Part shown: one piece after another, positions 1 through 17,864 of the stretch
Layout: the number at the start of each line of letters is the position of its first letter
Numbering within the stretch: position 1 is the stretch's first letter
DNA from: a virus
Length of the DNA: 30,619 nucleotides
IMG/VR virus record: IMGVR_UViG_3300034418_008209
Coordinates: 1 to 30,619 of that record
Direction: 5' to 3' (one strand)
Position numbers and translations under genes: made by a program
The notes under the pieces: generated by a model
What the model was told of the DNA's origin: nothing
The model's input: only the letters and a program-made list of their open reading frames with translations
Database searches by the model: none

Positions 1-1
1 T

Positions 2-1117
2 GTGGAGTCGGCAATCGGGATCCAGACCCTCGCACAGAACTCCGAGACTCAGCTCTCGGGGACGGCGGCACAGGTCGCAGGGGCCGTGGAGTGGGGCCTC
101 TCGCGTTCCCTGCGCCTTGTCGCCCAGCACTACGTCATGCCGCGGCTGGTTTCCTCCGCAGGTGTTGACGACACATCTGAACTGCGCGCGTTCGTCGGCT
201 CCCAGATCAAGGGCGCGGAGGACGTCAAGATCACCGCGTCGATCCTTCCCAAGAGCCGCGCGCTTCAGTTCCAGACCCTGATGCAGCTCGCCCCGCTGGT
301 CGGGCAGGACATCCGCCCCCATGTGGCCCGTTTCATGGAGGGCTCATACGACGAGTTCATCACCGCGGAAACGGCGCAGCGCAACCGGCAGAAGAGGGAG
401 AACTCAGCCCTCGCCGCGCTCGCGACCTACCCGCAGCGCGATCAGGTCTACAAGGACTTCATCCAGCTTCAGTCCAAGTACATGGAGGCGGTCCAGATCG
501 CGATCTCTCAGGGGCAGGATCCGATGCAGACGCTGATGGCGTCTGGGATCCAGCCACCGCAGGTTCTCAACATGCTGCGTGACGCCGGCGTCGCCATCCC
601 CACCGTGGAGGACTACGACGACCACGCGCAGCACATGAGAATGCTTGACGACTGGCGTCTCTCCGATGGATACGACGCTGTTCACCCGCTCGTCAAGCAG
701 GCTGCCCGCGAACATGCGGACCAGCACAAGAAGGCCCTCGCGCAGACGATGCTCTCCATCGGCGCACAGCAGCCGATGCCGCAGCCGGGCCAGCAGCAGG
801 GCTCGCAGCCCGCGCCGAAGGGCCAGCCGTCGCCGCCCAAGCAGCCCGGGCAGCCGGCGGGTCAGTCAACCGACATCGACGTCATCTCTGGCTTCGGGAA
901 CGGATTCTCCAAGGAAGTTGAGGCGATCCTCAACGTGGCCGACCGTGGCCTTCTCTACCCGCGCGAGATCCGAGAGAACCTGGCGAAGACCGGGATGATC
1001 ATCTACGAGGAGGTCGCCCTCCCCGATGTGGACCCACCGGCCCTGCCGGACGAGTCCCCGCACACCGTGAACCCCGAGGAGTTCGAGGACTTCTCTGACG
1101 ACGAGGAGATCGAGTGA
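2..1117 (+). CDS. Portal protein, C-terminal part (5' truncated by window)
   Basis: The open frame runs in from the left edge, so the GTG at its first codon is probably internal. The 371 visible residues are mostly helical, with a Pro/Gln-rich linker (about residues 255-290) and an acidic C-terminus ending in a run of Asp/Glu. Portal proteins form the dodecameric ring at the phage packaging vertex. The call rests on position just upstream of a scaffold-like gene and the major capsid gene, and on a resemblance to the helical C-terminal region of podovirus portals. It overlaps the next gene by four bases (GTGA), showing translational coupling. Because the defining N-terminal portal core is missing, another head protein is possible. 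Confidence 0.6.
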   Translation: MESAIGIQTLAQNSETQLSGTAAQVAGAVEWGLSRSLRLVAQHYVMPRLVSSAGVDDTSELRAFVGSQIKGAEDVKITASILPKSRALQFQTLMQLAPLVGQDIRPHVARFMEGSYDEFITAETAQRNRQKRENSALAALATYPQRDQVYKDFIQLQSKYMEAVQIAISQGQDPMQTLMASGIQPPQVLNMLRDAGVAIPTVEDYDDHAQHMRMLDDWRLSDGYDAVHPLVKQAAREHADQHKKALAQTMLSIGAQQPMPQPGQQQGSQPAPKGQPSPPKQPGQPAGQSTDIDVISGFGNGFSKEVEAILNVADRGLLYPREIRENLAKTGMIIYEEVALPDVDPPALPDESPHTVNPEEFEDFSDDEEIE

Positions 1118-1938
1118 GTACCGACTACCACCCAGGCTTTGAGGGTGGCGAGGAGGGGTCCGCTTCTCCTCAGCCGCCGCAGCCAGAGGCAGAGGCGCAG
1201 CCGCAGAACAACCCTTGGGAGCCCTGGCAGCAGGCTGGCTGGGAGCCTAACGAGGTCAACCCCTACGAGGTGCGTCAGGCATATGACGGCTGGCAGGCGC
1301 TCGGTAACCGCGACACGCGCGACTACATGCTCGAGCGCATGATGCAGGGGCATGAGCTTCCCGATGGCATGTCATGGCAGGACGCCAAGGAGGCGATCCA
1401 GCAGGCGTGGCAGATGCAGCAGGATCCGTTCATGCAGCAGGATCCGTTCGTGCAGCAGACTGACCCCTACTACGGCCAGCAGCAGATGGACCCCTACGGC
1501 CAGGAGCAGTACTCCGAACCAGTGAACCCGGCCGTCGATCCCTACGCGCTCAGGCAGGCGTGGCAGCACGATATGCGTGGCGAGCTTCAGCAGTTCCAGC
1601 AGCAGTTGCAGGAGGAGTACGAGGAGCGCGCCATGGCTGAGGACTTCAACCGGTCCATGCACTCCCTGAGGGATCAGCACAACCTGAGCGATTCAGATGT
1701 CGCTTTCATCGCTCCGCGCGTACAGGACTACATCCGTCCAGACGCTCCGATCTCGCAGGCGGTCGAGCAGGCGTACCGCGAATTCGATGAGTGGCGCCGG
1801 AACGCCATCGCGTCGATGGCGGGTCAGCAGCAGCAGGCCCCGCAGACGTTCTCCCCCGGCGGCATCGCCGCATCGCCGGACCAGCCGCCGCGCTCCATCG
1901 CGGAGGCCGCTCAGATGATGGAGAACCGCTTCGGCTAG
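1114..1938 (+). CDS. Putative capsid scaffolding protein
   Basis: A 274-residue, very Gln- and acid-rich, low-complexity protein that starts at a GTG overlapping the portal stop codon. The N-terminal half carries repeated QQDPF/QQxDPY-type segments (residues about 95-135). The C-terminal half (about 150-235) is predicted to be helical and coiled-coil-like, rich in Glu, Gln and Arg. Scaffolding proteins guide procapsid assembly, usually lie between portal and coat genes, and are typically acidic, helical and poorly conserved, which fits here. The gene is followed directly by a strong hairpin terminator. No sequence motif proves the role, so the call is by position and composition. Confidence 0.6.
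   Translation: MSTDYHPGFEGGEEGSASPQPPQPEAEAQPQNNPWEPWQQAGWEPNEVNPYEVRQAYDGWQALGNRDTRDYMLERMMQGHELPDGMSWQDAKEAIQQAWQMQQDPFMQQDPFVQQTDPYYGQQQMDPYGQEQYSEPVNPAVDPYALRQAWQHDMRGELQQFQQQLQEEYEERAMAEDFNRSMHSLRDQHNLSDSDVAFIAPRVQDYIRPDAPISQAVEQAYREFDEWRRNAIASMAGQQQQAPQTFSPGGIAASPDQPPRSIAEAAQMMENRFG
1414..1449 (+). repeat. Tandem 18-bp repeat in scaffold gene
   Basis: Two exact head-to-tail copies of an 18-bp unit (1414-1431 and 1432-1449) encode MQQDPF twice. A degenerate third copy (VQQTDPY) follows. This is in-frame expansion of a low-complexity linker. Confidence 0.85.
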
Positions 1939-1961
1939 GAGTTGCCCTTACGCAACCCCAT

Positions 1962-1991
1962 GAGGAGCCCCGCAAGGGGCTCCTCTCGTTT
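1962..1991 (+). terminator. Rho-independent-like terminator after scaffold gene
   Basis: A perfect 10-bp GC-rich stem (1962-1971 with 1976-1985) closes a GCAA tetraloop and is followed by a short T-containing tract (TCGTTT). It lies 23 bp after the scaffold stop. It would separate portal/scaffold transcription from the coat gene, or reduce read-through to set coat levels. The T-tract is weak, as is common in high-GC hosts. Confidence 0.7.
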
Positions 1992-2062
1992 CCCCCGCCG
2001 TAATTAGGTATAGTTAAAGCGCACGGCAGTCGGCTCCGGCGGGTGGGCAAAGTTCCCCGGGA

Positions 2063-2106
2063 GGACGGTGCGGAAAACACAGGGCTCACGCCCTGTTTCC
2101 CCGTCC
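2063..2106 (+). other. Structured 5' leader hairpin of the major capsid gene
   Basis: The sequence folds into one long hairpin: GGACGG (2063-2068) with CCGTCC (2101-2106), a left-side TGC bulge, GGAA (2072-2075) with TTCC (2097-2100), a left-side AAC bulge, then ACAGGGC (2079-2085) with GCCCTGT (2090-2096) around a TCAC tetraloop. That gives 17 base pairs ending just before the ribosome binding site AAGAGGAG (2113-2120). It has no T-tract, so it is more likely an mRNA stability, processing or translation element than a terminator. The role is inferred. Confidence 0.5.
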
Positions 2107-2129
2107 TTCCGTAAGAGGAGAACCACAAG

Positions 2130-3434
2130 ATGTCGCTTTATTCGGCATCCAGCGCGTTCGCCAAGGACACCTGGCTTCCGGGGCTCAACTACGAGCTTCT
2201 GAGCGAGCCCGGCACCCTGCTTGGGTGGCTCGGTTCGTACACGGACAGCCGCGTGACTGTGGATGTTGAGGGCCGGCGTTCCTACGTCAAGCTCCGCATC
2301 GGTGACTCGCTGGGTCAGGCCACCATCTCGCAGGGTGGCGACTACCCCAACCCGGGCGACCCGACCTACGACGAGGCGCAGCTCAACCTCGCTCACCTGT
2401 CGCACGCCCTCTCGTTCACCATGGAGGAGCTGGCGCTCCTTGAGTCGGCTGAGGCTGCTGCCGTGCCGATCATGGCTGAGAAGATGACTGCCGCCAAGGA
2501 GGCCATGTCCTCCGACATCGAGCGGCAGGCGTGGGGCGACGGCTCCGGCGTTCTCGCGAACGTCGCCTCGTCGTCCGGCGCGACCATCACCCTGGACGCC
2601 ACCACCTCGTCGCAGATCGACCGCGACCGCTACATCTGGGTTGATGACGCCAACCGCGCTCGCTACGACGTCGTGAATGGTTCGACCGGTGCCCAGCAGG
2701 TGACGGGCTTCACCGTGTCGGACATCAACGAGTCGACCAACGTCCTTACCTGCTCGGCCACGATGACCTCGGCCACCTCGGCCGGCGTCGTCGTCCGCTC
2801 CGGTACCTGGGCGTCTGGCGGTGCCTACTACTCGCTCGAGTTCCCGGGCGTGAAGGCGCTGGTTGACGACGGCAACACCTACCTCGGCATCGACCGCACC
2901 GCGTCGGGCAAGGGGTACTGGAAGGCCATCGTCAACGACAACTCGGGCACGCTCCGTCCGCTGACGGAGGAGCTGATCCACCAGACCATGAACAAGGTCG
3001 CGCGTCGCAGCGGCAGCCACCCGCAGGGTGACTACGCCGCGTTCGCTTCGCCGGGTTCGTGGACCGCGTACCACCAGATCATGACCCCCGGCCTGCGCTA
3101 CACGGTCGACGGGTCGGCGGACATCGGCTTCGGCCGTCCGCTGGAGATGCTGGGCGTGCCGCTCTACCGCGGCGTCCGTTGCCCGCGCAACTCGATCTAC
3201 CTGCTGAAGAAGTCGTCCCTCAAGTTCGTGCGCCCCAAGCACACGAAGCCGGGCGACCTCCTCAACTTCGTCAACATGGGCGGTTCGGAGTTCTTCCTCC
3301 AGAACGCGTCCAGCGGTCAGGGCCACGCGGCTGCCGTCGTGGCGTACCTCGACGGTTTCCTCGGCATGATGTCGACCAAGCCGCGCGACCACGCGCTGCT
3401 GGGTGACATCACCGAGGTCGCCAGCACCTACTAG
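2130..3434 (+). CDS. Major capsid (coat) protein, P22-like HK97 fold
   Basis: This 434-residue protein is the expected size for a coat protein and is preceded by a strong Shine-Dalgarno (AAGAGGAG, 9-nt spacing). The N-terminal third is rich in short helices. A Thr/Ser/Val-rich beta segment at about 150-230 looks like the inserted beta-domain of P22-type coat proteins. The C-terminal half (about 235-434) carries alternating strands and helices compatible with the HK97 A-domain. It assembles the icosahedral shell around the scaffold encoded upstream. Codon use is highly GC-biased, consistent with high expression. The gene sits alone behind a terminator and a structured leader, suggesting separate control of its expression. 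The fold assignment is from order, size and composition. Confidence 0.8.
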   Translation: MSLYSASSAFAKDTWLPGLNYELLSEPGTLLGWLGSYTDSRVTVDVEGRRSYVKLRIGDSLGQATISQGGDYPNPGDPTYDEAQLNLAHLSHALSFTMEELALLESAEAAAVPIMAEKMTAAKEAMSSDIERQAWGDGSGVLANVASSSGATITLDATTSSQIDRDRYIWVDDANRARYDVVNGSTGAQQVTGFTVSDINESTNVLTCSATMTSATSAGVVVRSGTWASGGAYYSLEFPGVKALVDDGNTYLGIDRTASGKGYWKAIVNDNSGTLRPLTEELIHQTMNKVARRSGSHPQGDYAAFASPGSWTAYHQIMTPGLRYTVDGSADIGFGRPLEMLGVPLYRGVRCPRNSIYLLKKSSLKFVRPKHTKPGDLLNFVNMGGSEFFLQNASSGQGHAAAVVAYLDGFLGMMSTKPRDHALLGDITEVASTY

Positions 3435-3442
3435 GTGATCTG

Positions 3443-3763
3443 ATGGCCGTCTCCGTCACTGTCAACCGCACCGACTCGGTCGGTCGTTACACGAAGTACG
3501 TCACGGGAACGATCACGTTCGACAGCTCCTACCCGACGGGTGGGGAGCCGCTGTCAAACAGCGACGTCCAGCTCTCGAGCAAGATCGACTTCCTCCAGGC
3601 GTCTTCGGTGGACGGCTACATCTTCGAGTACGACTACACCAACTCGAAGGTCGTGGCCTACCTGCCGAACTCCGACGCGACGGCCCCGTCTGTCGCCAAG
3701 GAGGTCGCGAACACGACGGACCTGTCGTCGGTGACCTGCAACTTCATCGCTTTCGGTTACTAG
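3443..3763 (+). CDS. Small beta-rich head protein, possible decoration protein
   Basis: A 106-residue protein starts 8 bp after the coat gene with an AGGTGAT ribosome binding site. Its sequence alternates short hydrophobic/Thr-Ser strands (VSVTVNRTD, YVTGTITFDS, GYIFEYDY, KVVAYLP, VTCNFIAFGY) and has almost no predicted helix, so it is probably an all-beta domain. Small beta proteins right after the coat gene are often capsid decoration or minor head proteins. The exact role is not shown by any motif. Confidence 0.65.
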   Translation: MAVSVTVNRTDSVGRYTKYVTGTITFDSSYPTGGEPLSNSDVQLSSKIDFLQASSVDGYIFEYDYTNSKVVAYLPNSDATAPSVAKEVANTTDLSSVTCNFIAFGY

Positions 3764-4240
3764 ATGAAGCTCGCCAGTTCTCCTGTCAACGATCTGCTGT
3801 ACCCCGACTGGAGGTTCGTGGAGGAGGATCTCCACAACGTCTCTGGTCGCGTGCAGGATTACGACGAGGAGGCCCGACTGGCCCGGGACAATGTCTCGGG
3901 CCAGTTGGGGCTGGCGAGGCGCATTTCCAACCCCGACCCGACCGGCTCCGGCTCGATCTGGGTCATCGCAAAGCGTCTCACCGATTCCGACGATGAGCCG
4001 CTTGCCGGCGAGCCCGATGCGCGCGTGCTGGAGCAGCAGCGGGCCTCGGATGCATTCCGCATCCAGAACGTCGACGCATGGCGTCGCACCCAGGAGAAGG
4101 TCTGGGAAGCGAATGAGCGTCGACGCATCCAGCGTGAGATCGAGAAGAACATGGCGAACGCAGAAGAGTTCGTCTGGACCGCGCGTCGCAAGGATCTCAA
4201 TCAGGCAGCGCCGGTCAGGGTGAGCAAGGACGTCGCCTGA
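3764..4240 (+). CDS. Virion-associated protein of unknown function
   Basis: A 158-residue hydrophilic protein starts directly after the preceding stop codon (TAGATG) and overlaps the next gene by one base (TGATG). It therefore depends on translational coupling. The middle and C-terminal part (about 85-150) is a long, charged, Arg/Glu-rich helix. There are no signal peptide, membrane segment or catalytic motifs. Its place between head proteins and the adaptor suggests a head-completion or scaffold-like role, but that is inference. Confidence 0.6.
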   Translation: MKLASSPVNDLLYPDWRFVEEDLHNVSGRVQDYDEEARLARDNVSGQLGLARRISNPDPTGSGSIWVIAKRLTDSDDEPLAGEPDARVLEQQRASDAFRIQNVDAWRRTQEKVWEANERRRIQREIEKNMANAEEFVWTARRKDLNQAAPVRVSKDVA

Positions 4241-4938
4241 TGGCGAGCGGCGACTTCGCTGACCTCTACACCAAGGCGATCTACGGATCGCGGCGCGATA
4301 CCTCTGACTCATTCGACGTTGCCCGCGCGAAGGACGCGATCAACGAGGCTTTGCAGGCTGTGTCGTTCACGGGCGACCCGTGGAGCTGGCTTGAGCGCGA
4401 AGGAGAGGTGACCCTCCAAGTCGGGGCCGACGTCTACTCCTACGCGACCCTTGGCACTGCGCTCGGGACGACCGTCAGCGAGATCATGTCCTTGGTCATG
4501 GACAACGAAGACGGTGGGTATCGGCTTGAGTCCATGTCATGGGACGCGCTTGAGAACGTGACCTACGGAACCCAGGACGACGAGCAGTCCGGTGAGCCGA
4601 TCTTCTGGGCTGACTGGGACTCAAAGATCAGGGTCTACCCCAAGCCCGACGAGGCTTATGTCTTGGGCGTCTTCTACCGCGCCTACCAGTCGGAGCTTTC
4701 AAGCGACTCAGACGTACCACTCATGCCGCTTGAGTGGCGCACGCGCCTTCTGGTCCCCTACGCCTGCTCGCGCCTCCTGCGGCAGGAGGGCGGATCTGAG
4801 GCGGCCTCAGAAGCCGACCGCTACATGGGCGAGTACCAGCGCGCCTTCCTTGAGTGCCGCAACGCCTGCGCGACCATCAGCTCTCCTGCCATGCGCCTCG
4901 CGACCCCCGCCTGGCGTGACCAGATGTGGATGGGCTGA
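4240..4938 (+). CDS. Head-tail adaptor (podovirus gp4/gp11-like)
   Basis: This 232-residue protein starts on a TGATG overlap. Helices at the N-terminus (residues 1-40, with ARAKDAINEALQ) are followed by a beta-rich middle (50-160, including IFWADWDSKIRVYPKPDEAYVLGVFYRAYQ split over two strands) and a helical C-terminus (170-232). This helix-beta-helix plan and the size match podovirus adaptor rings that bind the portal and carry the nozzle. Position immediately before a large nozzle-like gene supports this. No unique motif exists for the family, so some uncertainty remains. Confidence 0.6.
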   Translation: MASGDFADLYTKAIYGSRRDTSDSFDVARAKDAINEALQAVSFTGDPWSWLEREGEVTLQVGADVYSYATLGTALGTTVSEIMSLVMDNEDGGYRLESMSWDALENVTYGTQDDEQSGEPIFWADWDSKIRVYPKPDEAYVLGVFYRAYQSELSSDSDVPLMPLEWRTRLLVPYACSRLLRQEGGSEAASEADRYMGEYQRAFLECRNACATISSPAMRLATPAWRDQMWMG

Positions 4939-7130
4939 TGCGCGAGATCGTGATCGCGCGCCCGTTCGCCGGCGGATATCGCTCAGATGCTCCCGACTAC
5001 GCGCTCGAGGCGAATGAGTGTGCGTACTCGCAGGACGTCATCGCCCCATTTGGTATTGCACAGCAGAGGTGGGGGTGGAACTTCGACGGCACGACGACGG
5101 ACGCGGCGAAAAACCTTATTGGCGTGTCCAGATCGCGCTTCCCGATCACAGAGCGATCAGTAACGCTTACGACAACCGAAGACGGATACGTCTATATCCA
5201 TAACCCGGCGTCTTCTGGGACAGCTGTATGGGAGAACAACCCCCCATCCTATTCAGCATCGTGGATCCCCCGCTGCATGTATAACGGCGAAGTAATTCTT
5301 TGCGCCCAAGACGGTGTTACCCCGCTCCTCCGCTACGCCGGTTCGACCCTCGCCAACTCCGCAGGATGGCCGACAGGGGGGACCGGTCTATGGTCTATTG
5401 CGGACCAGTCATCGTCTCCAACTATTTCATTAACCACATGGCCGTCAGGCACCGAAAAGGGCGCCTTCTTCAGCGCCCTGTATACAAACGCAAGTAGCAA
5501 AGGGTTTTTCCCGCACATTTCGTCAAGGGTTCTTGCGAAGTCTTCGTCGACGGTCATCACCCTTGATGGAATACGCAACTCCTCGGGTTCCCCGACTCCA
5601 GCAACGGGCGCGACTGGGACGTATGTGATGCCGGTCGGTTTTGCCTGGCCGGGGGTGTCTGTGTGGGACACCGGCACATCAACCGGCAACTCCCCAACCC
5701 TGAGTCAGTTTTCGTTTTCCGGCGCCGATCTGGCGAGTGCTGGGCTGTTTGTGGACTATGTCCCGATGAATGACTGTCTCTTCATTCAGAACCCAACCTC
5801 GGGCTCCCCGCACATCATGGTGTCCGTAATTTCGTATACCGCTGGCCCGCCCGAGTTGCTGAATGTCCAGCCAGCCCCGCAATCGACGTTTGGCTCAACG
5901 CAGTACCGGATATCCCGTCGCCTCCCCTTCAAGGACGCTGCGGTTCACAACAATTCATTGTGGGGTTGCGGGGTTCGGCAGTACCCAAACCGGGTATACG
6001 TCGGTCCGCCGCTTTGGGACATCGGAAACCCGCCGGGGTCGATTCAACCTTTTGACCCAATTTCCGACAGCACATTTGCCGACGTTGATGAGTTCTTCTT
6101 AACGCCGGTTGACGTTCCCTCTCGCTACGACACTGACCCGGTCGTGTCTATCCTTGCAACGCCTGGCCCCCTGCTTGTGCTTAAGGGGGCGTCGGTATAC
6201 GGGATCTATGGCTCGTATCCCAGCTACGAGCAGTCGCTGATTGCCAATGGCTCTGGGTGCATCGACCTTCGCTCGGCAGTTTCTGTTGATGGCGTTGCGT
6301 ATTGGGCAGGCCGTGACGGCATCTTCATGTATTCGGGCGGTCAGATCGTCCCAATAACACGCGGCAGGATCGAGCGTGAGTGGCAGGCGCTCATGCGTGG
6401 GTACGTCGACGGCACCTCATGCGTCTCCACCGCTGTTGTCACGAATCATCTTGTCGTATCTGTTGCGTCACTTTCCACCTCCGCTACAGGCGAGGCTAAG
6501 GTCGGTCCCGATTCGTCCAACCCGTCTGAGCGCACATATATCTATGACCTCAAGGCGCAGGTGTGGACGTCGCGCATCAGCAACGCCAAGATGCGGAACA
6601 TGTCCTCGGTCCGCGTCCCGGGCGAGGTTAACTCGATCTTCGCAGTAAGCGACGATTACCAGGGCCGCGTAATCGACGTCACCCCAGCCGTGACTGGAAC
6701 GAAATGCACCGACCGCGCAGCTCAGACGCTCACTGACGCGGATCCGAACGACGCAGCCGGGGACGGACCCCGTATGCAGGCATGGACCGGCTCGTCACTG
6801 GCCGCGGCTAACGGTGTCGACGGCGAGGCGCGGTTTGCGGATCTCGCCGTGACCACGAACCTCGTTGACTCAGCCGGATCACCAACTGCCGCTATCGACG
6901 TCAGCACTTTCCATGGCGGTGGTCTTGACGATCAGGCCAGCACGGTCGTCGCCCAGGGCACGATTACCGGTGACTCCGTTGATCGTGTCGACCGCAAGAA
7001 GTTCCGGGTCAACCAGACAGGACGTCTGCATCAGGTTCGCATTGACATGGACGTCACTTCGGCCACAACGACGAAGACCCAGATTCCCGAAATCACGGCG
7101 ACCTTCCGCGATAGCCGGAGGATGACATGA
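4938..7130 (+). CDS. Tail nozzle / tail tubular protein B-like
   Basis: A protein of about 730 residues dominated by short beta strands with Gly, Ser, Thr and Pro-rich loops, as in beta-propeller nozzle proteins (P22 gp10, T7 gp12 types). I chose the ATG at 4938, which overlaps the previous stop (TGATG) and has GGA seven bases upstream. A GTG at 4926 is also in frame but has no ribosome binding site. Near the middle is a segment (about 400-480, GPLLVLKGASVYGIYG, followed by GVAYWAGRDGIFMYSGG) typical of repeated propeller blades. The first half is less GC-rich at third positions than its neighbours. Its likely role is extending the portal-adaptor channel and contacting fibres. Confidence 0.6.
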   Translation: MREIVIARPFAGGYRSDAPDYALEANECAYSQDVIAPFGIAQQRWGWNFDGTTTDAAKNLIGVSRSRFPITERSVTLTTTEDGYVYIHNPASSGTAVWENNPPSYSASWIPRCMYNGEVILCAQDGVTPLLRYAGSTLANSAGWPTGGTGLWSIADQSSSPTISLTTWPSGTEKGAFFSALYTNASSKGFFPHISSRVLAKSSSTVITLDGIRNSSGSPTPATGATGTYVMPVGFAWPGVSVWDTGTSTGNSPTLSQFSFSGADLASAGLFVDYVPMNDCLFIQNPTSGSPHIMVSVISYTAGPPELLNVQPAPQSTFGSTQYRISRRLPFKDAAVHNNSLWGCGVRQYPNRVYVGPPLWDIGNPPGSIQPFDPISDSTFADVDEFFLTPVDVPSRYDTDPVVSILATPGPLLVLKGASVYGIYGSYPSYEQSLIANGSGCIDLRSAVSVDGVAYWAGRDGIFMYSGGQIVPITRGRIEREWQALMRGYVDGTSCVSTAVVTNHLVVSVASLSTSATGEAKVGPDSSNPSERTYIYDLKAQVWTSRISNAKMRNMSSVRVPGEVNSIFAVSDDYQGRVIDVTPAVTGTKCTDRAAQTLTDADPNDAAGDGPRMQAWTGSSLAAANGVDGEARFADLAVTTNLVDSAGSPTAAIDVSTFHGGGLDDQASTVVAQGTITGDSVDRVDRKKFRVNQTGRLHQVRIDMDVTSATTTKTQIPEITATFRDSRRMT

Positions 7131-7690
7131 CGACGTCGAACTTCTGGGGTTTCCAAGAGAAGACCCCCGACAAGGAATTCTCCGCTCCTTACGACACCAG
7201 CACAGTTATCCGTGAGTCTCTCCGCGATGGGTCAACGACCTCCAACCTTCCCCGGCAGAACGCATCTCCGATAGCTCAGACATCCGGTGGCATTGGGATC
7301 CAGAACATCAAGCGCGCGTTTCTGAACGCTGTCCCGTCGCCGCTTGGTATTGATTTCCAGACGACCAGCACTTCCTACGTCCGTGCAGGATCTGAACTGT
7401 CTGGATCGGTTGAGACGTCGGGCCGCCCCCTGATGCTGCTTGTCCGTGGCAACGCTGGGATATCAAGCGGCTACGCGACCATCAGCGTCTTGCTCAATGG
7501 CGAAGAGGTGACGGGCGGCGACGGAATGTCTCGCGTCTACCCGTCAAACCAAGAGACGTTCTTCGGAATGTTTGTCGCTACGCCGCCTGCCGGCACGCAG
7601 AGCATCGCGATGGTCTGGAAGACAAGCACTGGTTCCAATGTCCTCATGCCGCGCTCTTGCCGGCCGTCCGTAACAGCGGTGGAGATATGA
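7127..7690 (+). CDS. Virion structural protein, unknown
   Basis: A 187-residue protein starts on an ATGA overlap with GGAGG five bases upstream. The first 65 residues are Ser/Thr/Asn-rich and probably extended. Residues 75-187 look all-beta (YVRAGSELSGSVETSG, PLMLLVRGNAG, YATISVLLNGEEV, SIAMVWKTS), like a jelly-roll domain found in tail-tip or fibre-associated proteins. Position right after the nozzle gene suggests a tail-tip or head-fibre protein. No catalytic residues are evident. Confidence 0.6.
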   Translation: MTTSNFWGFQEKTPDKEFSAPYDTSTVIRESLRDGSTTSNLPRQNASPIAQTSGGIGIQNIKRAFLNAVPSPLGIDFQTTSTSYVRAGSELSGSVETSGRPLMLLVRGNAGISSGYATISVLLNGEEVTGGDGMSRVYPSNQETFFGMFVATPPAGTQSIAMVWKTSTGSNVLMPRSCRPSVTAVEI

Positions 7691-8574
7691 GTACCAACTA
7701 CTTCCGTCCGACTACCTACATCACGCGCCCCTCGCGGCCGGCGCAGGTTCAGATGCCGGCTGCAACGACTGGCAGCGGTCTTCCCACGCGCGAGAACTTC
7801 CAGGTTCAGTTCAACGGCCAGAACGCGCCGAACCAGGGGCAGATCACCAACCTGTTCAACACCCTTTACGGCAAGGGGACGGCAGGGCAGGACGGCTACC
7901 TGCCGGGCATTAACGAGATTGCTGCTCGCCAGTACGGTACCCAGAAGACGAACGTCCAGAACGCGCTCCGTGGTTACGGAGGATTCTCCTTCCGCCAAGA
8001 CGACCCGAATACGAAGGACGTCGATGAGTCTCTGATGCTCGACTACACGCCCGACCGGCTCGGGCGCAACGAGCGTCAGGCTGTCCTTTCAGCGCGGGCC
8101 GCTGCCAACGCGCGAGGGATGCTCTCCTCGGGGTTCGCTGACAAGCAGATCGGTGCTGCGCTTCAGCAGGTGAGCGCGGATGTCGCGGCAATCGTTCGCC
8201 AGTACAGCACGAACATCAACGCCATTGCGACCAAGTATTTCGATCCCTTTACTGGGCTCCAGGCGCAGGCGATAGGCCAGATTAACTCCCTTTACGGGTC
8301 CGACTCCACCTGGCTGACAGACCGTCAGGCAGAAGCCGCAGCAGCAGTTGCAGCGACGCCTGCTCCGGCCCCTGCTCCGGCCCCTGCGCCTGCTCCTGCG
8401 CCGTCACCCCTGCCCGAAGCAGCGCGTCCTAGCGAGAGGACTGTCTGGAGGGGAGCAAACCGGCCGAACATGGCGACGCTCCGCAAGAGGCACCCCGGCA
8501 TGAATCTCCGGGTCGTGGTCGTCCGACCGCAGGGCGCGCCTCCCAAGTACGTCGTCTACGGAGTTCCGAGGTAG
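7687..8574 (+). CDS. Virion protein with Ala-Pro linker and C-terminal repeat module
   Basis: The 295-residue frame starts at the ATGA overlap at 7687 behind GGTGGAG. Residues 1-210 form a Gln/Ala-rich, largely helical region with KQIGAALQQVSADVAAIV-type amphipathic helix. Residues about 224-240 are an Ala-Pro repeat acting as a rigid linker. The last 45 residues (RTVWRG, RPNMATL, RH, then YVVYG) form a small module that recurs inside the next gene. This architecture suggests an internal virion or ejection protein with a detachable binding module. The function is unknown. Confidence 0.6.
   Translation: MSTNYFRPTTYITRPSRPAQVQMPAATTGSGLPTRENFQVQFNGQNAPNQGQITNLFNTLYGKGTAGQDGYLPGINEIAARQYGTQKTNVQNALRGYGGFSFRQDDPNTKDVDESLMLDYTPDRLGRNERQAVLSARAAANARGMLSSGFADKQIGAALQQVSADVAAIVRQYSTNINAIATKYFDPFTGLQAQAIGQINSLYGSDSTWLTDRQAEAAAAVAATPAPAPAPAPAPAPAPSPLPEAARPSERTVWRGANRPNMATLRKRHPGMNLRVVVVRPQGAPPKYVVYGVPR
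8358..8405 (+). repeat. Ala-Pro codon repeat
   Basis: A run of alternating GCN/CCN codons includes two near-identical 12-bp units (GCTCCGGCCCCT). It encodes an Ala-Pro linker between the helical body and the C-terminal module of the 295-residue virion protein. Confidence 0.8.
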
Positions 8575-8576
8575 CA

Positions 8577-10253
8577 ATGGCACGCCGTCCACAGCCCCGC
8601 ATCTTCAACCTTTCCCCGTATGCCGGCGCGCCGATGGTCGACCTCTCGTCTGGACGCGTGACGCGCAGGAGCGGGAAGAAGATCAAGCGCAATCCCCTCG
8701 CCGTCCCCGGCGAGTTCGCCCTTCCGCGCCGCGGCGGACTGAGGATCCTCCGTAACCGGAGGACGGACACGATGGGCGTCCGTGACCTCGTCGTTGACCA
8801 GAGCGGACGCGTCGTTGCAAACATTCGCCCCGGGTCCAGTCCGCAGTTGCGGATGGTCGGTCAGGGCGCGAACCGCCGCCTCGTCGTCGGGCGGTCGGCC
8901 GCCCCCGCCTCCGGTGCCGCTCCCACCGGGGGCGGTGCGGGCGCGCCGGTCCTCGCTGATGTCACAGACGACCCAACACTGTTCAAGAGCTCCAATGACC
9001 GCGTTCTTTGGACCGGTAGTGGCAGGCCGAACACCGCAACGCTCAACCAGCGCCACGGTGAGGGCAACTGGTACCTGGAGCAGGGCGAGGACGGCAAGTA
9101 CGTCGTCAAGGCGCGCGACAACTCGCCGTATGCCCAGTACAACGACTACCCATTCATTCGCAGGTACCTCGAGGGCCTGGACACTGGCTACAACCAGTTC
9201 AAGGGCTACATCGACAACACCCTGACCCCGAACCTGACTGCGGCGGCCGAGAAGCTGACCGGCATGGCTATCGCTGGCGGCAACGCCTACAACACCGCCA
9301 TCCAGAACTACGCCGGTTCGGCAGGCACCGCAGAGGCTGCGATCACCACGCCTCAGGTCGCCGGCATGACCGGCGGGACCGTGCAGGCGCCGAACCAGAA
9401 CGCCCTTGCCGCGCAGCAGGGGATCGCCGCAGCGGCCAACACCGCGCGCGGTATGGACGCCGCCTACCGGACGACCCTTGGCGCGACGGACGCGGCGGCC
9501 AAGAGTACGGACTTCCTCTCTCGCTACACCTCATACGCGGCTGGGCTCCTCAACCAGTACGGGCAGAAGCGCAACGAGGAGCGCCTCAAGCTTGATCAGT
9601 GGATCGAGGAGCAGAAGCAGGCGCAGCGCGACTACGATCTGAAGCTTGCCGACATGGAGTCGCGCACGATCAACGCCCTGATTATGAGCGGTGACCGTGC
9701 GGCGGCACGGGATGTCACGACGCGCGGTCAGGATCTTGTCGACGCCCGCGCGCAGGCAGACGACGCGCGGCAGGAGACAATTGATCAGGGACTTCGCCCC
9801 TCGGATCTGGTGAGCCAGTACCGCAAGATCCCGAAGGGCGCAGGCGCGAACTGGCGCAACAAGCCGGGCGTCGTGCAGGACATCAACGGCGACTGGTGGA
9901 TCCCGAAGCGCGGCGGCTCGGGCGGCGGTTCGGGAACCGGGCGCACCACGATGAAGGTTGTCAACAAGGCGCGTCTTGATGGAGTGTTCAGAAACGGCTT
10001 CCAGGGTAAGCCTGCCGAAACCTACCCTGGGACCACGGTGGAGAAGCCGGGCTCTGGTAAGCCAGCCGCATGGCGTGGCGACCGTGAAAGAAAGCGCAGG
10101 GCTGCCGCCCAATGGATCGTGAAGAACAAGGCGAACTTTGTCGGCCTTACGAAGGCTGACGCCACCGTGGTCAGAACGTGGCTGGCCGGCTTCGACTTCC
10201 TCACTTCAAAGGACGTCGACAGCATCATCAGTCAGGTAAAGCAGCAGCTCTAG
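8577..10253 (+). CDS. Large virion protein, probable internal/ejection protein
   Basis: A 558-residue protein starts 2 bp after the previous stop, with CGAGG upstream. The basic N-terminus (1-60) is followed by beta-like segments (60-105), a copy of the small module seen at the end of the previous gene (about 140-180: RVLWTGSGRPNTATL, then KYVVKARDN), an Ala/Gly/Thr-rich helical region (200-330) and a charged coiled-coil-like region (330-410) with many Gln, Asp and Arg. The C-terminus (460-558) is basic. Its position between tail and the giant internal protein suggests a DNA-ejection role, as for T7 gp15-type proteins. No enzyme motif was seen. Confidence 0.6.
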   Translation: MARRPQPRIFNLSPYAGAPMVDLSSGRVTRRSGKKIKRNPLAVPGEFALPRRGGLRILRNRRTDTMGVRDLVVDQSGRVVANIRPGSSPQLRMVGQGANRRLVVGRSAAPASGAAPTGGGAGAPVLADVTDDPTLFKSSNDRVLWTGSGRPNTATLNQRHGEGNWYLEQGEDGKYVVKARDNSPYAQYNDYPFIRRYLEGLDTGYNQFKGYIDNTLTPNLTAAAEKLTGMAIAGGNAYNTAIQNYAGSAGTAEAAITTPQVAGMTGGTVQAPNQNALAAQQGIAAAANTARGMDAAYRTTLGATDAAAKSTDFLSRYTSYAAGLLNQYGQKRNEERLKLDQWIEEQKQAQRDYDLKLADMESRTINALIMSGDRAAARDVTTRGQDLVDARAQADDARQETIDQGLRPSDLVSQYRKIPKGAGANWRNKPGVVQDINGDWWIPKRGGSGGGSGTGRTTMKVVNKARLDGVFRNGFQGKPAETYPGTTVEKPGSGKPAAWRGDRERKRRAAAQWIVKNKANFVGLTKADATVVRTWLAGFDFLTSKDVDSIISQVKQQL

Positions 10254-10254
10254 C

Positions 10255-13200
10255 ATGGCTCTGAACTACCTCTTCGACGCCTCGAAGAATGTCCGGCGTT
10301 CTGCCAAGAAAGTCGCCAGAGACACAGAGCGGTGGCGCCGTTCCAAGTCATATGTCGGCGTAAACAAGAAGCGCGTCTTTCCTCCGGCATTTGAGCTTGA
10401 GGAAGCCCTGCCCCGCGCGAAGGCGTCTGGCGCCAAGAGGAAGCAGACGAAGAAGCGCGTTTCACCTAAGCAGCAGCGCGCTGGCCTTGATGTATCCCAG
10501 TTGCTGCGGGGTAGGCGCCCGATTGGCATCCAAGGAATAAGTAAGGACGCCTTCTCCGACCCCGGGATGTTCTCCAATGACCCTGCGGAGCGCGCTCTCG
10601 CCCTTCGCCGTATTCGTGTTCGGATAGAGCAGCAGGCGGGTCGTGACGAGGGCGGCGGCGGAGGTGGAATCGCAGGCTTCCTCGGTCGCACGCTTTTCAA
10701 CTTCGGACGGCAGGGGTACGAAGCAGCGGTCGGGCTTCCTGGCGCAATCGCGGAGGGTGCTGGCCTTGCTGCGGATGCGGCAATCGTTGCCGCTCCGTCG
10801 CGCAATGTCCCCTCGTCTGTGCGGCAGCGTTCGTCTGAGCGTGTTACCGACTACATCGGCCAGACCGCGAAGTACTACCCGCGCCTTGCCCGCGATTTTC
10901 TCAAAGACCCAATCGGGACAATTGAGAATAGGCCGCTTGAGGTCGCGGCGGTCGGACCAGCCGTCTACAACGCCGTTGGCCGTGGGCTCGTCGCTACCGG
11001 ACGCGCAACTGGTTCTGCCGGGCGCCTTGGAGCCGATATTGTTGCCGCGCCAAGCGTTCGTGTCGGCGTCGCAAGGACGCGTGCGCGCAGCAGGGCTCAA
11101 CGAGATGCACAACGACGCACTGTCATGGGCGCGGACGGCACTCGTCTTTCGATGCAGCCCAACGTCTACGCCGCTCCGCGTCCTCGTTCGTTTGTCTTCG
11201 ACGGCCGTCAGTCTCAGGCGGCCCGCCAGAGGGCCGCGTCTGAAGTAACCGGCAACCGCGTGGGCGGTCGTGTCTTTGATGTGACCCAGCGGATAGACGA
11301 TTGGGTTAGCGACTCGTTTGTCCCGGGATCACGGCGCTACCGCGAGCCGGACAGGATCGCTCCTCCGGCAGAGATGGCAGACGCCGACGGTGTCGATCCG
11401 ATTGAGGTTTCCAGGCGCCCGCGGTCGTCCAACCCGATCTCCCGCGAGATCCAGTCCCTGACGGACCGCTTTGTCCGCGGCAGGTTGATCGGTGGCGTTG
11501 TCGATCCGGTCAGGTCCGCGCTTTCCCCACTTGGGGTCCGTTCGCGCTATGAGAGCGCGGTGCGCCGTGAATCTCGCAACGCGGCGTATGGAGTCCGTGA
11601 GGCGACCGACCGCGACGTAATGGCAATAGTCGGTCCGTTCGCAAGGATGGTCAGGGACTTGAAGGGGTCAGGCCGCAGCGGCGGGCTCCCCGAGTCCGAG
11701 GTGGCGCAGGGGTCTGCCGCAGCGGCGTTGCGCCTGATGGGCCTCAACGACCCGGGGTTCGGTAGTCGAACCGCTGGGCGCGACCTCCTGATCCAGCGGA
11801 TCGAGCGCCGGATTGACGAACTTGACAAGGACAAGCCGGCAGCCCGCAAGGTGAATGAGCGCCGCGATTGGGGTCGCGAGCGCAAGGGTCTTGAGGAGAA
11901 CCTCAAGACTCTCCGCTCGATCCCCGACGAGTGGCTTGACCCGGAGACTGCTCCTAAGAACATCAACGATCTTGTTGCTGAGGAGCAGAAGCTCTCACGC
12001 TTTGCATCGCAGGAGAAGGTTGCGATGGGGATGATCTCTCCGTCCGCTGCCGCGTGGAGCGATGTGCGCGCACAGGCTCAACTCCTTGGGGCGAAGCCTG
12101 CCGCCACCATCCGCGGAGAGCGTTCCGCAGGATTCCGCCGCGACCTCAAGGAGGCACGGGCGGTCCGCGAAGAACTTCGCCGGCGTACCAGTGAGCCTGA
12201 GGCCCGCAAGACCCCCGGCAACGAGGAACTTGACCGGTTCTCCGGCTACACGGATGACGCGCTCAAGATCATCGAGAAGGCCCGCACGCGTCGTGGCCGG
12301 ACAATCCGCCAGCGGGTCCAGCCAGGAATTCGGCGCGCCGAGGAGGACGCGCTCAGGCCATATGAGAACTACCAGGCTGCACAGTCCGAAGTTGCCCGAC
12401 TGTCATCTGAACTTCAGTCGCTCGTCCGGCGACGCGACGGGTCTTCCTTTGATGAGCCCCTTGAGGCGGCGATTGCTGAAGTCGAGCGCGGCGTGCGCGA
12501 GGCGGTGTTTGAGCGCGACCGCGCAGCTCAGAGAGTTCGCATGGCGCAGCAGGGCGCTCGGGCGATGCGTGCTTCTCAGCGACGGTCAGCGCAACGCCGG
12601 AGGGCGGCTGCGCTCCGCGACCAGCGCCGCGCTCGCGAGTCTGCTGAGTTTGAGGTTCGTCGTGCCGCAGATCGACTCCGTATGGCGCGCCAAGGGCGCG
12701 TGGCGCTTAGTCGCGCTGAGACTGCTCGCCTTCGCAGGATTGTTGCGGGAGCGCGGCGTGCTGTTCCGTCGGTCGCGGTCGAACTTGGCCGCGTGTTTCG
12801 TGCCGGCGAAAGGAAGGGTCGCGCGTCGACTCGCGCGAATGTCACGACGCAGTCCGGCCAGCGTGCCTACGGCACCATGCTGCGCTCCGACGCGAAGGTA
12901 TACGTTGCGCGGACTAGGCAGGATGCTGTCCGTGACACTCGGCGCGATGTAGAGCGCGCAAAGGAAACGCTCGGCGTCTCCCGTGGTTCTGCCAAGGTGA
13001 GGAGTCGTGCCGAAGAGCGCGCACTTCGTGAGCTTGAGCAGGCGCGGCGCCAGAGAGATGTCGTTCGCTCCCGCAGGATTCCCGCTGCGCCGCGTCCCGA
13101 CCGCAAGAGGACTCCCGCAGAAGAGCGCGCGCTGCGCCAGGCTGCGGAGGCCCGTGGCAACCTCCGCGGAGTACCGAGGCAGGCTGCTGCCGCCGAGAGG

Positions 13201-15318
13201 CGTCGCCAGAGGATCATCGGTAGGCAGGCCGTTGACCGCCAGCGTCCTGTTGGAACGCCACGGCAAATCCGGTCCAAGCAGACCGAACTCAACAATGCAC
13301 GCGCGCGCGCGAGGAACGAGCGTGCGCGCGCTCTTCGCACCGCGTACACGGGATACGACATGCCGGAGCGCGCCGGCATGCAGCCCGGCTCGTACTACCC
13401 GGCCCGCAGGAATCAGGTTGATCGCCCCGCGATGCGGGTTGCCGAGACTGGCGGCCCGGGCGCCATAAGCGGTGCGCGCCTTACCCCGCCGCAGGAGCAG
13501 TTCAACCGCGGCGTGAACTTCGAGCGTGGCGACATTGACTTCTCGCCACAGCAGATCGTCAATATGGTCCGTGACGCAGTAGACGCGCGGGAAAGGACTG
13601 CGGCAGCATCTGCTGTCGTCACCCGTTTCGCAATGCGCGACGGCAACGGCCGCCTGATCACCGGGGAGGCGGCGCGCGAACTTGCCAGCCGCAATCCCGG
13701 GTTTGTCGAAACGATCACGATGCGGCAGCTCGCCCGCATCTCGTCGCTGTCCGCGAACCGCGAAGCCGGTAAGCGCCTGATCCGCGATCTGGAAGAGGCG
13801 GTCTTCGACAACGCTGACTCTGTTGTTGCGATCCCGACTGCCGTAAGGCGGGGGTGGACCGACGCACTTGGCAAGGCAAACCCCGTCACCCGGAGCCTGG
13901 AGTACGTCAACTCGCTGTGGAAGGGCGGCGTTCTCGCCCTCAACCCCCGCTGGTACATGCAGAACTTCTTTGGCATGTGGGGACAGTTCCTCCTTGGCGC
14001 CGGCGCCGATCTCCAAGCCATATCGATGGCACGGAACTCCAAGTTCCTCGAGGTCATCCCGGGGAGGATCGCCGCGAACGGACTCGCCGCCGACCTTGGT
14101 GAGTACGCCGCAAGGATGCAGGGGCGCGGAGGTAATCCCGTGCAGCGGCTGATCCGGGGCGGCTTCAACCTCAACTCAATACTTGAGAGCGTGCCTCGCC
14201 GCGCGATGTTCTGGTCTGCGGCGAAGAGGAACCTCCAGCGCAACCAGTTCATGGAGCGCGGAGTGATGAACGAGGCGTACTTGGCACGCGCCTGGGCGGA
14301 TGTGGTCGAAGGCGTCAAGAGGGGCGACCGTGGCGCGGAGGCGATCCTTGACGAGACGATTCTCGTCACCGAACGCTTCATGGGTAACTACTCGAGATAC
14401 AACCCGTTCGAGAGAAACGTGCTGAGGGTCATCTTCCCGTTCTACGGGTGGATGCGGTCGATCCACCGCCTTGCCTTTGGACTTCCCCTCAAGCACCCGA
14501 AGCGTGCTGCGCTTCTGGTGATGGCGTCCCAGATGGCGTTCGAAGAGTCGGAACTCAACCGCAATCTCCTGACTGCCCCGCGCAGCGGCGTCTTTATCGG
14601 TAACCGGATGATCGGCACAAGCAGTTGGAACCCGGCGATGAGTATTGCCGACAGCCTTCGCCTGATATCCGAGGTAGGAGGGGTTATTGAGGGAACGAAA
14701 CTCACCAGTCCCACTTCTGTCGATGAAGCGGTTGCGGGCATTGCAACCGATATCTTCCGATCCGCCGTACAGCAGGCAGGGCCGCTGGTCGGGATTCCAT
14801 ATCGTGCGATCACGGGAGAAACTCCTGCCGGGATCCCCGACAGGTTCTCTCCTGGCGCAAGCGGAAGGTGGTCCCAGCCGACCGGTGGCTACGTCAGCGT
14901 TGAGGGGGCCACAGGGTCCGAGTCCAACGACCCGCCGCGCAAGGGCCTCTTGGCAACAACTGAGCAGGCGTTCCCGCTTGTCAACAATGCGCGCCGGGCG
15001 CTTGCGGGCGGGACGCCGACGGCGGACGCGACCCTCCTCTCGCTCGTCCCGTGGGCCATGGCGGGGCGTCCGGCAGAGGACGCCCCATACATGGTCGTGA
15101 ACGATCCGCGCACACCGCGCGTTGTTCAGACGGACGGACTGTCCGCTCTCAGCAACATCTTCTTGGGCGCTCCTGTCGACAGGGTCGACTGGAATGCCGC
15201 CGAGGCCCGCGAGGCCCAGGCGCTCGACAGGTTGCTGTCTGCGCTGAGTTCGACCGAGTCGCGCAAGCAGGAGGGCATCGCACAGCAAAAGGCAAAGAAG
15301 AAGAAGGCAAGGCGCTAG
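10255..15318 (+). CDS. Giant internal virion (ejection) protein
   Basis: The 1687-residue product is by far the largest in the window. The basic N-terminus (1-85) is followed by a Gly-rich, Ala-rich stretch (about 125-190) that could be membrane-active, and a long Arg/Glu/Ala-rich coiled-coil region (about 430-1040) with dense RR and RAR tracts. A more hydrophobic C-terminal domain (about 1205-1560) includes ALNPRWYMQNFFGMWGQFLL and VIFPFYGWMRSIHRLAFGLP. The last residues are a Lys/Arg tail. Large proteins with this layout sit at the end of podovirus virion operons and are ejected with DNA to form a trans-envelope conduit. No transglycosylase motif is obvious within it; the muralytic activity appears to be in the next gene. 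The start lacks a clear ribosome binding site and is close to the preceding stop, suggesting coupling. Confidence 0.65.
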   Translation: MALNYLFDASKNVRRSAKKVARDTERWRRSKSYVGVNKKRVFPPAFELEEALPRAKASGAKRKQTKKRVSPKQQRAGLDVSQLLRGRRPIGIQGISKDAFSDPGMFSNDPAERALALRRIRVRIEQQAGRDEGGGGGGIAGFLGRTLFNFGRQGYEAAVGLPGAIAEGAGLAADAAIVAAPSRNVPSSVRQRSSERVTDYIGQTAKYYPRLARDFLKDPIGTIENRPLEVAAVGPAVYNAVGRGLVATGRATGSAGRLGADIVAAPSVRVGVARTRARSRAQRDAQRRTVMGADGTRLSMQPNVYAAPRPRSFVFDGRQSQAARQRAASEVTGNRVGGRVFDVTQRIDDWVSDSFVPGSRRYREPDRIAPPAEMADADGVDPIEVSRRPRSSNPISREIQSLTDRFVRGRLIGGVVDPVRSALSPLGVRSRYESAVRRESRNAAYGVREATDRDVMAIVGPFARMVRDLKGSGRSGGLPESEVAQGSAAAALRLMGLNDPGFGSRTAGRDLLIQRIERRIDELDKDKPAARKVNERRDWGRERKGLEENLKTLRSIPDEWLDPETAPKNINDLVAEEQKLSRFASQEKVAMGMISPSAAAWSDVRAQAQLLGAKPAATIRGERSAGFRRDLKEARAVREELRRRTSEPEARKTPGNEELDRFSGYTDDALKIIEKARTRRGRTIRQRVQPGIRRAEEDALRPYENYQAAQSEVARLSSELQSLVRRRDGSSFDEPLEAAIAEVERGVREAVFERDRAAQRVRMAQQGARAMRASQRRSAQRRRAAALRDQRRARESAEFEVRRAADRLRMARQGRVALSRAETARLRRIVAGARRAVPSVAVELGRVFRAGERKGRASTRANVTTQSGQRAYGTMLRSDAKVYVARTRQDAVRDTRRDVERAKETLGVSRGSAKVRSRAEERALRELEQARRQRDVVRSRRIPAAPRPDRKRTPAEERALRQAAEARGNLRGVPRQAAAAERRRQRIIGRQAVDRQRPVGTPRQIRSKQTELNNARARARNERARALRTAYTGYDMPERAGMQPGSYYPARRNQVDRPAMRVAETGGPGAISGARLTPPQEQFNRGVNFERGDIDFSPQQIVNMVRDAVDARERTAAASAVVTRFAMRDGNGRLITGEAARELASRNPGFVETITMRQLARISSLSANREAGKRLIRDLEEAVFDNADSVVAIPTAVRRGWTDALGKANPVTRSLEYVNSLWKGGVLALNPRWYMQNFFGMWGQFLLGAGADLQAISMARNSKFLEVIPGRIAANGLAADLGEYAARMQGRGGNPVQRLIRGGFNLNSILESVPRRAMFWSAAKRNLQRNQFMERGVMNEAYLARAWADVVEGVKRGDRGAEAILDETILVTERFMGNYSRYNPFERNVLRVIFPFYGWMRSIHRLAFGLPLKHPKRAALLVMASQMAFEESELNRNLLTAPRSGVFIGNRMIGTSSWNPAMSIADSLRLISEVGGVIEGTKLTSPTSVDEAVAGIATDIFRSAVQQAGPLVGIPYRAITGETPAGIPDRFSPGASGRWSQPTGGYVSVEGATGSESNDPPRKGLLATTEQAFPLVNNARRALAGGTPTADATLLSLVPWAMAGRPAEDAPYMVVNDPRTPRVVQTDGLSALSNIFLGAPVDRVDWNAAEAREAQALDRLLSALSSTESRKQEGIAQQKAKKKKARR

Positions 15319-16437: not shown

Positions 16438-16481
16438 TTAGGGATGTGTAACGTCATGCCCAAGTGCAAAGATGGTGGCCT

Positions 16482-16754
16482 GTGAGTTCCACCCCACAGC
16501 CAGTAAGCGCCGGTCAGATCCAGTGGCGAGTTGACCAACTCGAGAACCGCCTGGACCGTCTGGAGCAGTCGGATGCGGCCCGCACCGAGATCCTCGCCCG
16601 GATGGACGAGCGCCAGACGTCGCTCGCTGAAGACGTCAAGTTGCTCGGCCGCGACATGGCTGGCATCAAGCGCTCCCTGTACACCCTCCTCTTCGCGCTT
16701 GCGCTGGCGGTCGTATCGACCGGCATCGACATCGCAGTAAGGCTCGCAACATGA
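16482..16754 (+). CDS. XhlA-like coiled-coil/TM lysis-associated protein
   Basis: A 90-residue protein with an N-terminal heptad coiled coil (about 13-60, RVDQLENRLDRLEQ) and one C-terminal transmembrane helix (about 67-84, LYTLLFALALAVVSTGIDIA). This plan matches the haemolysin XhlA family, which assists holin/endolysin lysis in Gram-positive phages. I chose the GTG at 16482 because GGTGG lies just upstream; an in-frame GTG at 16464 has no ribosome binding site. It overlaps the amidase start (ATGA). It could alternatively be the holin itself. Confidence 0.65.
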   Translation: MSSTPQPVSAGQIQWRVDQLENRLDRLEQSDAARTEILARMDERQTSLAEDVKLLGRDMAGIKRSLYTLLFALALAVVSTGIDIAVRLAT

Positions 16755-17587: not shown

Positions 17588-17598
17588 GAGCGATCCAC

Positions 17599-17862
17599 AT
17601 GAAGGTTCCCGTTGGCATTTCGACGGTCATCGCCGTCGTCACGATCATCGCGGCAGCCGTCGGTGCTGTCATCAGCGGACTGGACGGTGCGGGCACCGCC
17701 GTGCCGCTGACCCTGTCCATCATCGCCGGAGTCCTCGCTGCGGTCCTGTCGGTCCTGCGCTCCTGGCAGGCCAACACCTTGGCGGTCTGGACCGACGGTG
17801 GCCCCGACAACGGCGTGAGCGCGACGAGTTTCGAGGAGTTCCGCGCCGGCCTTGACGACTAG
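17599..17862 (+). CDS. Holin, two transmembrane segments
   Basis: An 87-residue protein with two hydrophobic helices (about 6-26, ISTVIAVVTIIAAAVGAVIS, and 32-52, AVPLTLSIIAGVLAAVLSVL) joined by a short GLDGAGT turn, and a polar acidic C-terminus. This is a typical class II holin topology; it would permeabilise the membrane for the endolysin. The start has TAGGAG eight bases upstream and lies 11 bp after the amidase gene. Confidence 0.8.
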   Translation: MKVPVGISTVIAVVTIIAAAVGAVISGLDGAGTAVPLTLSIIAGVLAAVLSVLRSWQANTLAVWTDGGPDNGVSATSFEEFRAGLDD

Positions 17863-17864
17863 CC

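Follow-up and report, generated by a model that had tools for sequence, protein, structure and literature searches.

A conserved RNA fold leading into the capsid gene of a clade of uncultured phages

What is the folded element that stands directly before the capsid gene of this phage, and what might it do? The window analyzed here is a whole virus record of 30,619 bases, in which a plus-strand gene at 2130–3434 encodes a 434-amino-acid major capsid protein. Its match to the PHROG major head proteins (phrog_14242, E 1.1e-28) bears out the coat-gene identity proposed by a sequence-only reading. That reading had also described a bulged hairpin just upstream, at 2063–2106, with stabilization of the message, RNase processing or binding of coat or scaffold protein offered as its functions. 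Direct reading of the plus strand recovers the hairpin as described, with 17 base pairs, two 3-nt bulges, both on the 5′ side, and a tetraloop. It comprises an outer helix (GGACGG, 2063–2068, with CCGTCC, 2101–2106), a first bulge (TGC, 2069–2071), a middle helix (GGAA, 2072–2075, with TTCC, 2097–2100), a second bulge (AAC, 2076–2078), an inner helix (ACAGGGC, 2079–2085, with GCCCTGT, 2090–2096) and the loop TCAC (UCAC in RNA, 2086–2089). The minimum-energy fold carries the outer helix out to 2058/2111, and the fold of 2040–2130 reaches −44 kcal/mol (z −3.79), with none of 200 dinucleotide shuffles as good. Seven nucleotides (2107–2113) separate the hairpin from AAGAGGAG, and no T-tract follows it, both as claimed; a terminator scan of 1900–2200 returns no intrinsic terminator (hairpin plus T-tract). 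Comparison with relatives reveals a larger conserved folded RNA before the coat gene, very probably a functional one, of which this hairpin makes up the second half. To judge from the alignments, a leader that would alternate between two folds is a better fit to the comparison than the functions first offered.

Relatives came from capsid-based searches of the viral contigs, which returned 11 and then 14 loci; one further true relative, L040, from a metagenome bin, was added by scanning genome contigs with a pattern. With the window included, the set holds 16 capsid loci in 15 records and reduces to 12 distinct leaders (the window, L002, L006, L007, L008, L009, L010, L011, L033, L035, L036 and L040), the rest being repeats over the ∼220 nt compared (L001 of the window; L003, L004 and L005 of L002). 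One 68,267-nt record, IMGVR_UViG_3300008107_000123, carries two different portal and capsid modules, L002 and L008, each with its own leader element; this record is probably a chimeric or joined assembly.

The conserved core is hairpin I (plus strand, 2021–2071), defined by alignment, pair counts, an independent consensus fold and a covariance model. Its helices are P1 (2021–2024/2068–2071, GCAC/GUGY), P2a (2029–2031/2064–2066, GUY/RRC), P2b (2034–2037/2060–2063, CUCY/GGAG) and P3 (2040–2043/2056–2059), the last of which takes several paired forms across the leaders. On its 5′ side the loops read GGC(N), KG and GG, of which GGC and GG never vary. The conserved element as a whole covers ∼52 nt, from GCACGGC to GGTGYRG (window 2021–2073), is present in all 12 leaders and overlaps the 5′ arm of the reported hairpin. 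Mean identity over 66 pairs is 81% in the core, as in the first 240 nt of the capsid gene, against 55% in the remaining leader and 58% in the 70 nt upstream; the core exceeds the capsid-gene start in 26 of the 66. Twenty-nine of 53 columns never change, and variation falls mostly in P3 and its loop.

Pairing within hairpin I is retained where sequence is not. Across the 12 rows, 96.6% of cells are paired (91.5 when shuffled), 13 cells are changed on both sides (3.6 shuffled), 5 pairs show such double change (2.3 shuffled; 9 of 500 shuffles reach 5) and the covariation score is 0.276 (0.175 shuffled), although these shuffles overstate significance because the rows are related. Further pair types are not in excess (11 versus 10.4 shuffled). 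When partners are slid by 1–3 columns only 40–58% of cells pair, every slid version falling below hairpin I, and RNAalifold given no structure predicts the same helices. The strongest evidence comes from P3, whose pairing is kept as CGGG/CCCG, CGAG(A)/(U)CUCG and CGAAGA/UCUUCG. P1 is nearly invariant, so covariation neither supports nor opposes it. A short leader reading frame beginning at the GUG of GGUGC was considered and rejected, as its product differs in length and sequence between leaders by eye.

Each of the 16 capsid loci yields a single strong match to the covariance model of hairpin I (E 4.6e-13 to 6.4e-10), and no other site in their records scores better than E 0.019; in the 7.4-Mb bin that holds L040, the model was scored on 150 of 12,020 first-look candidates. 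In viral contigs, two-part patterns match only this clade and L044; in genome contigs, they match L039, L040 and L041. L039, L041 and L044 were rejected as relatives, being unrelated sequence by translation with model E values of 0.0025–0.035. The 17-nt 3′ half alone occurs in 23 stretches of the viral collection, 13 of them new and none accompanied by the rest of the element by eye. A looser two-part pattern returned 97 stretches, 82 of them new; CACGG is missing from the 16 nt upstream of all 82, and the model reached at best E 0.029 on the 70 to which it was applied. A portal-based search found the known records, a record end (L074) and one distant locus (L076, 23%), with no model match at L074 or L076 in the DNA examined. 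The first 375 portal residues at L074 (IMGVR_UViG_3300034374_011196, 25,246 nt) are 100% identical to those of L001, and this record may derive from the same phage as the window.

The leader DNA matches none of 50,697 named phage records. Among named phages the capsid protein has one relative, in Cellulosimicrobium phage DS1 (25%), whose capsid gene is preceded by 14 nt and gives no model match. A capsid profile run over 89 genomes around the L040 bin matched the bin itself and one distant locus, the latter without a model match. Rfam gives no match at the gathering score over the whole window, and permissive scans of three leaders stay far from the gathering score. Within the searches made, the element is confined to the capsid gene of one clade of uncultured phages.

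The inner part of the reported hairpin (plus strand, 2072–2100), here called hairpin II, adjoins hairpin I without a gap, so that P1 is followed by GGA(N), a bulge and a stem. In the window it comprises GGAA/UUCC, the 3-nt bulge AAC, ACAGGGC/GCCCUGU and the loop UCAC. Its sequence is variable among leaders, and its two halves match within lineages: 5′ halves pair with their own 3′ halves at −24.2 kcal/mol and with swapped halves at −19.3 kcal/mol, a difference reached in none of 20,000 permutations of the 12 leaders and at p 0–0.0003 with one leader per lineage, whereas the reversed control gives p 0.22 and 0.03–0.40, respectively. The hairpin II region folds better than shuffles (p < 0.05) in 9 of 12 leaders, the others being L006, L008 and L011. 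Minimum-energy folds place exactly three unpaired nucleotides on the 5′ side in the window, L002, L033, L035, L036 and L040; in L033 these face five unpaired nucleotides opposite, and in L009 the bulge is 2 nt.

The reported hairpin corresponds to hairpin II extended by an outer helix, 2059–2068 with 2101–2110, the latter forming the 3′ arm of a long hairpin. Since the outer helix uses the strands that form the 3′ side of P1, of P2 and of the base of P3, the long hairpin excludes hairpin I; the first bulge of the reported hairpin, UGC, is the 3′ strand of the helix that closes hairpin I. Summed over the 12 leaders, the outer helix is matched by none of 1,000 shuffles. Singly it beats shuffles in 6 of 12, namely the window (p 0.006) and, at p < 0.05, L002, L008, L009, L010 and L011; L006, L007, L033, L035, L036 and L040 do not rise above theirs. 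In L008, the strand that matches the outer arm is part of that leader's own hairpin II. Conservation and covariation of the stem in relatives had been proposed as the check on the reported hairpin, and the outcome is divided: the halves do match within lineages, but the outer arm is significant in only half of the leaders, and the deepest conservation lies in hairpin I.

We compared the two states by equilibrium folding at each transcript length, which is not a kinetic simulation. In the window leader, hairpin I is dominant from 53 to 83 nt after the predicted start, except for a dip at 71 nt; P1 and P2 then drop to about zero between 83 and 89 nt, as the 2101–2107 arm is made, and P3 fades later. 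L002, L007, L008 and L011 resemble the window, with dips. Hairpin I is partial in L009, L010 and L040 and dominant at no length in L006, and in L033, L035 and L036 P2 and P3 form while P1 in the register given above stays at or below 0.04 at every length, a shifted register being preferred. In the complete leader the probability of P1 is about zero in 12 of 12, with P2 retaining 0.42 in L033. Forcing hairpin I costs 8–18 kcal/mol relative to the full ensemble, and taken by itself the hairpin has ordinary stability in 9 of 12 leaders (z −1.4 to 1.15). With shuffled tails its mean probability is 0.16 (0.02–0.42 in single leaders), against 0.014 with native tails, which lies below all 100 shuffled means. 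Hairpin I is already weak next to shuffled tails, so the competition is partly generic, and this, together with the ordinary stability of hairpin I, weakens the idea that the competition is tuned. The two predicted folds would exclude each other, with the pairs of hairpin I present in 12 of 12 leaders and the outer arm singly significant in 6; extension of hairpin II into a long hairpin that excludes hairpin I is supported in about half of the leaders.

Both folds lie close to the ribosome-binding region (plus strand, 2116–2129), which consists of the Shine-Dalgarno AGGAG and its spacer and is complementary to P3 in some relatives. P3, singled out after the folds had been inspected, pairs with its own Shine-Dalgarno region at −11.5 kcal/mol and with swapped regions at −9.0 kcal/mol (p 0.0003 over 12 leaders; p 0.0003–0.017 with one leader per lineage), and four swap controls that use the whole core or the capsid start are flat. 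With the spacer alone shuffled and the leaders summed, 0 of 1,000 shuffles are as good for P3, 5 of 1,000 for the whole core and 972 of 1,000 for reversed P3. Singly, the match is significant (p < 0.05) in L008, L011, L035 and L036, is near 0.1 in L007 and L033, and is not significant in 8 of 12 leaders, including the window (p 0.29), with L002, L009 and L010 showing nothing. A pairing of J1-P2a with the Shine-Dalgarno was rejected as a general rule (swap p 0.89; 991 of 1,000 shuffles), L010 alone giving p 0.035.

The Shine-Dalgarno itself is no more buried than its shuffled counterparts (16 of 100). The stretch from the Shine-Dalgarno to the start codon is more buried than its own (0 of 100), mainly owing to L007, L008, L010 and L011. 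When each state is forced in RNAs that retain 30 nt of the coding region, hairpin I leaves the Shine-Dalgarno less open than the long hairpin does in 7 of 12 leaders and more open in 1; the counts are 6 and 2 when 6 nt are retained. Between the Shine-Dalgarno and the start codon, the leaders do not shift in any one direction. In the window, 2104–2108 can pair with the Shine-Dalgarno when free, and for this reason the openness of the Shine-Dalgarno is 0.04 in the hairpin I state but 0.29 in that of the long hairpin. These forced-state folds contradict a refolding that hides the ribosome-binding site in every leader. As modeled, both states would touch the ribosome-binding region; the direction of any effect is unsettled, the long hairpin of the window being the more open state.

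The position of the element within a transcript is suggested by a −10-like hexamer, TATAGT (plus strand, 2009–2014). All 12 distinct leaders have the form TANNNT, its end lying 6–10 nt 5′ of the element, with a chance of ∼0.08 per leader for a pattern picked after the leaders had been inspected. TGn precedes it in 8 of 12, but not in the window, and no −35/−10 pair passes a promoter scan. From the hexamer, transcription is predicted to start at about 2021, the first base of P1, and its presence in every leader therefore implies that hairpin I should begin the transcript. The order of conserved hairpin I followed directly by hairpin II, just 3′ of a conserved −10-like hexamer, is well supported.

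Farther upstream, the sequence-only reading had placed a terminator, but the terminator scan picks none there (0 in 1900–2200). The structure concerned is a GC-rich hairpin, GAGGAGCCCC GCAA GGGGCTCCTC, on the plus strand at 1962–1985 (stem 1962–1971/1976–1985), with a good terminator-like stem but a poor T-tail, TCGTTTCC; comparable GC-rich hairpins occur in L002 and L040 by eye. In L006–L010, L033, L035 and L036, the 45 nt upstream instead hold a strong inverted repeat (z −4.5 to −7.8), which frames the −10-like site in or near its loop and ends in GCACGGC, its arms differing between lineages. In the window, L002, L011 and L040 the repeat does not reach significance. It was rejected as a general part of the element, being absent in 4 of 12 leaders and giving a swap p of 0.29 in windows that cut part of the arms. 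In read-through RNA the upstream repeat would tie up the 5′ strand of P1, which suggests that folding of the leader is reserved for transcripts begun at this promoter.

Considered together, these data lead us to put first, and only tentatively, a bistable cis-acting leader at the 5′ end of the capsid-operon transcript, the two folds of which would act on the ribosome-binding region. Hairpin I would fold first as the RNA leaves the polymerase and would be held through its invariant loops by a partner, which might be RNA polymerase, a phage or host protein, or a small molecule. A leader left unheld or released would refold into the long hairpin, the strand left for pairing with the Shine-Dalgarno would change, and capsid translation would change with it. 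In the window, the hairpin I state would free 2104–2108 to cover the Shine-Dalgarno and the long hairpin would take this strand up again; in other relatives, it would be the P3 strand, freed by refolding, that is complementary to the ribosome-binding region. Translational riboswitches and autoregulated leaders use exclusive helices with strands able to pair with the Shine-Dalgarno region. The present leader has like exclusive helices, but belongs to no Rfam family and shows no common computed direction. More broadly, and as a speculative possibility, it could represent a new family of phage regulatory RNA heading a structural operon, in which a nascent two-hairpin form captures RNA polymerase or another partner, in a put-like or riboswitch-like manner, and refolding ends the action, so timing late transcription or capsid translation. 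We found no such leader before a tailed-phage capsid gene among listings of the open-access literature. A leader that covaries and that our searches place only at the capsid genes of a single clade offers a compact and testable case of RNA-level control of capsid supply.

A possible but doubtful alternative is a put-like antiterminator, in which hairpins I and II would together bind the RNA polymerase that has transcribed them and let it run through pause sites and terminators across the long structural operon. The refolded hairpin would then be only the end state after release. The put and EAR elements are named as RNAs that bring about antitermination with no need of protein factors, although for EAR a host factor may take part (PMC11658703). 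HK022 putL is described as an element of ∼70 nt with two stem-loops carrying multiple indents and bulges, located just 3′ of an early promoter and acting on RNA polymerase (PMC9378689), and its anatomy is the closest we found. By analogy, the present leader is of similar length (∼80 nt), with two adjacent bulged hairpins joined without a gap at the predicted start and one copy per capsid module, hairpin I being present in 12 of 12 leaders and a folded hairpin II region in 9; its invariant loops suggest a binding partner. HK022 putL follows a phage promoter, whereas the leader follows a −10-like hexamer in 12 of 12 cases with no full promoter found by the scan; put precedes early genes, whereas the leader precedes the capsid gene; and unlike HK022 put, the leader has a second hairpin that can extend and exclude the first. 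The model of hairpin I only (R1), run with filters off on HK022 20000–40751, reaches at best E 1.2, and given no match in this searched half of the genome we do not class the leader as a put RNA. Terminator-like sites in 1–20000 of the window, on both strands, number 11 against 12.2 expected, and antitermination would not account for the complementarity of P3 to the ribosome-binding region that some relatives show. If the leader does act on RNA polymerase, it would add another case of RNA-only antitermination in phages.

We consider it unlikely that the leader serves as a 5′-end stabilizer of the capsid message, whose paired first bases would keep 5′-end-dependent nucleases away. In line with this explanation, the transcript is predicted to begin with P1, and strong folds follow. 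However, a stabilizer does not need invariant loop sequence, yet 29 of the 53 columns never change, and P1 falls to about zero in the full leader of all 12, the 5′ end of the window then being paired by other bases. The gene 10 leader of T7 is likewise structured and lies between a promoter and the ribosome-binding site of the major capsid gene. It is a short hairpin not known to have long invariant loops; the present leader is alike in position and differs in its invariant core and alternative folds.

An operator for coat or scaffold protein, one of the functions first offered, would have the bulged hairpins bound so that capsid synthesis is repressed or timed. We regard this as improbable. 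The element does lie directly before the capsid gene and nowhere else in the searches made, and the loops on one side of hairpin I are invariant. Against this, hairpin II, which stands next to the ribosome-binding site, varies in sequence, so that a coat or scaffold contact would have to be made in hairpin I. The MS2-type coat operator of RNA phages is a bulged hairpin with a tetraloop near the start codon, whereas this phage is a DNA phage by gene content and its hairpin has two 3-nt bulges and lies upstream of the ribosome-binding site. A DNA element, that is, an operator or activator site around the promoter with the RNA folds incidental, is very unlikely: the strong inverted repeat framing the −10-like site in 8 of 12 leaders would suit it, but the repeat is missing as a significant feature from the window and three relatives, its half-sites are 20–25 nt apart by eye, a spacing poorly tolerated by a protein dyad, and P3 covaries as a helix.

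Beyond the leader, no tRNA or tmRNA is present in the window. Six of the records have no DNA polymerase A family match (the control matched in 10 of 14) and no match to the phage RNA polymerase model PF00940, for which the control also failed to match. Among the structural genes of the window, a 1,687-amino-acid frame at 10255–15318 has no Pfam or PHROG match at E 0.001, and the sequence that follows it, 15319–16437, shows a weak glucosaminidase match below the Pfam cut-off. A 219-amino-acid frame at 28219–28875 weakly matches phrog_645, annotated as RNase E (E 1.1e-5).
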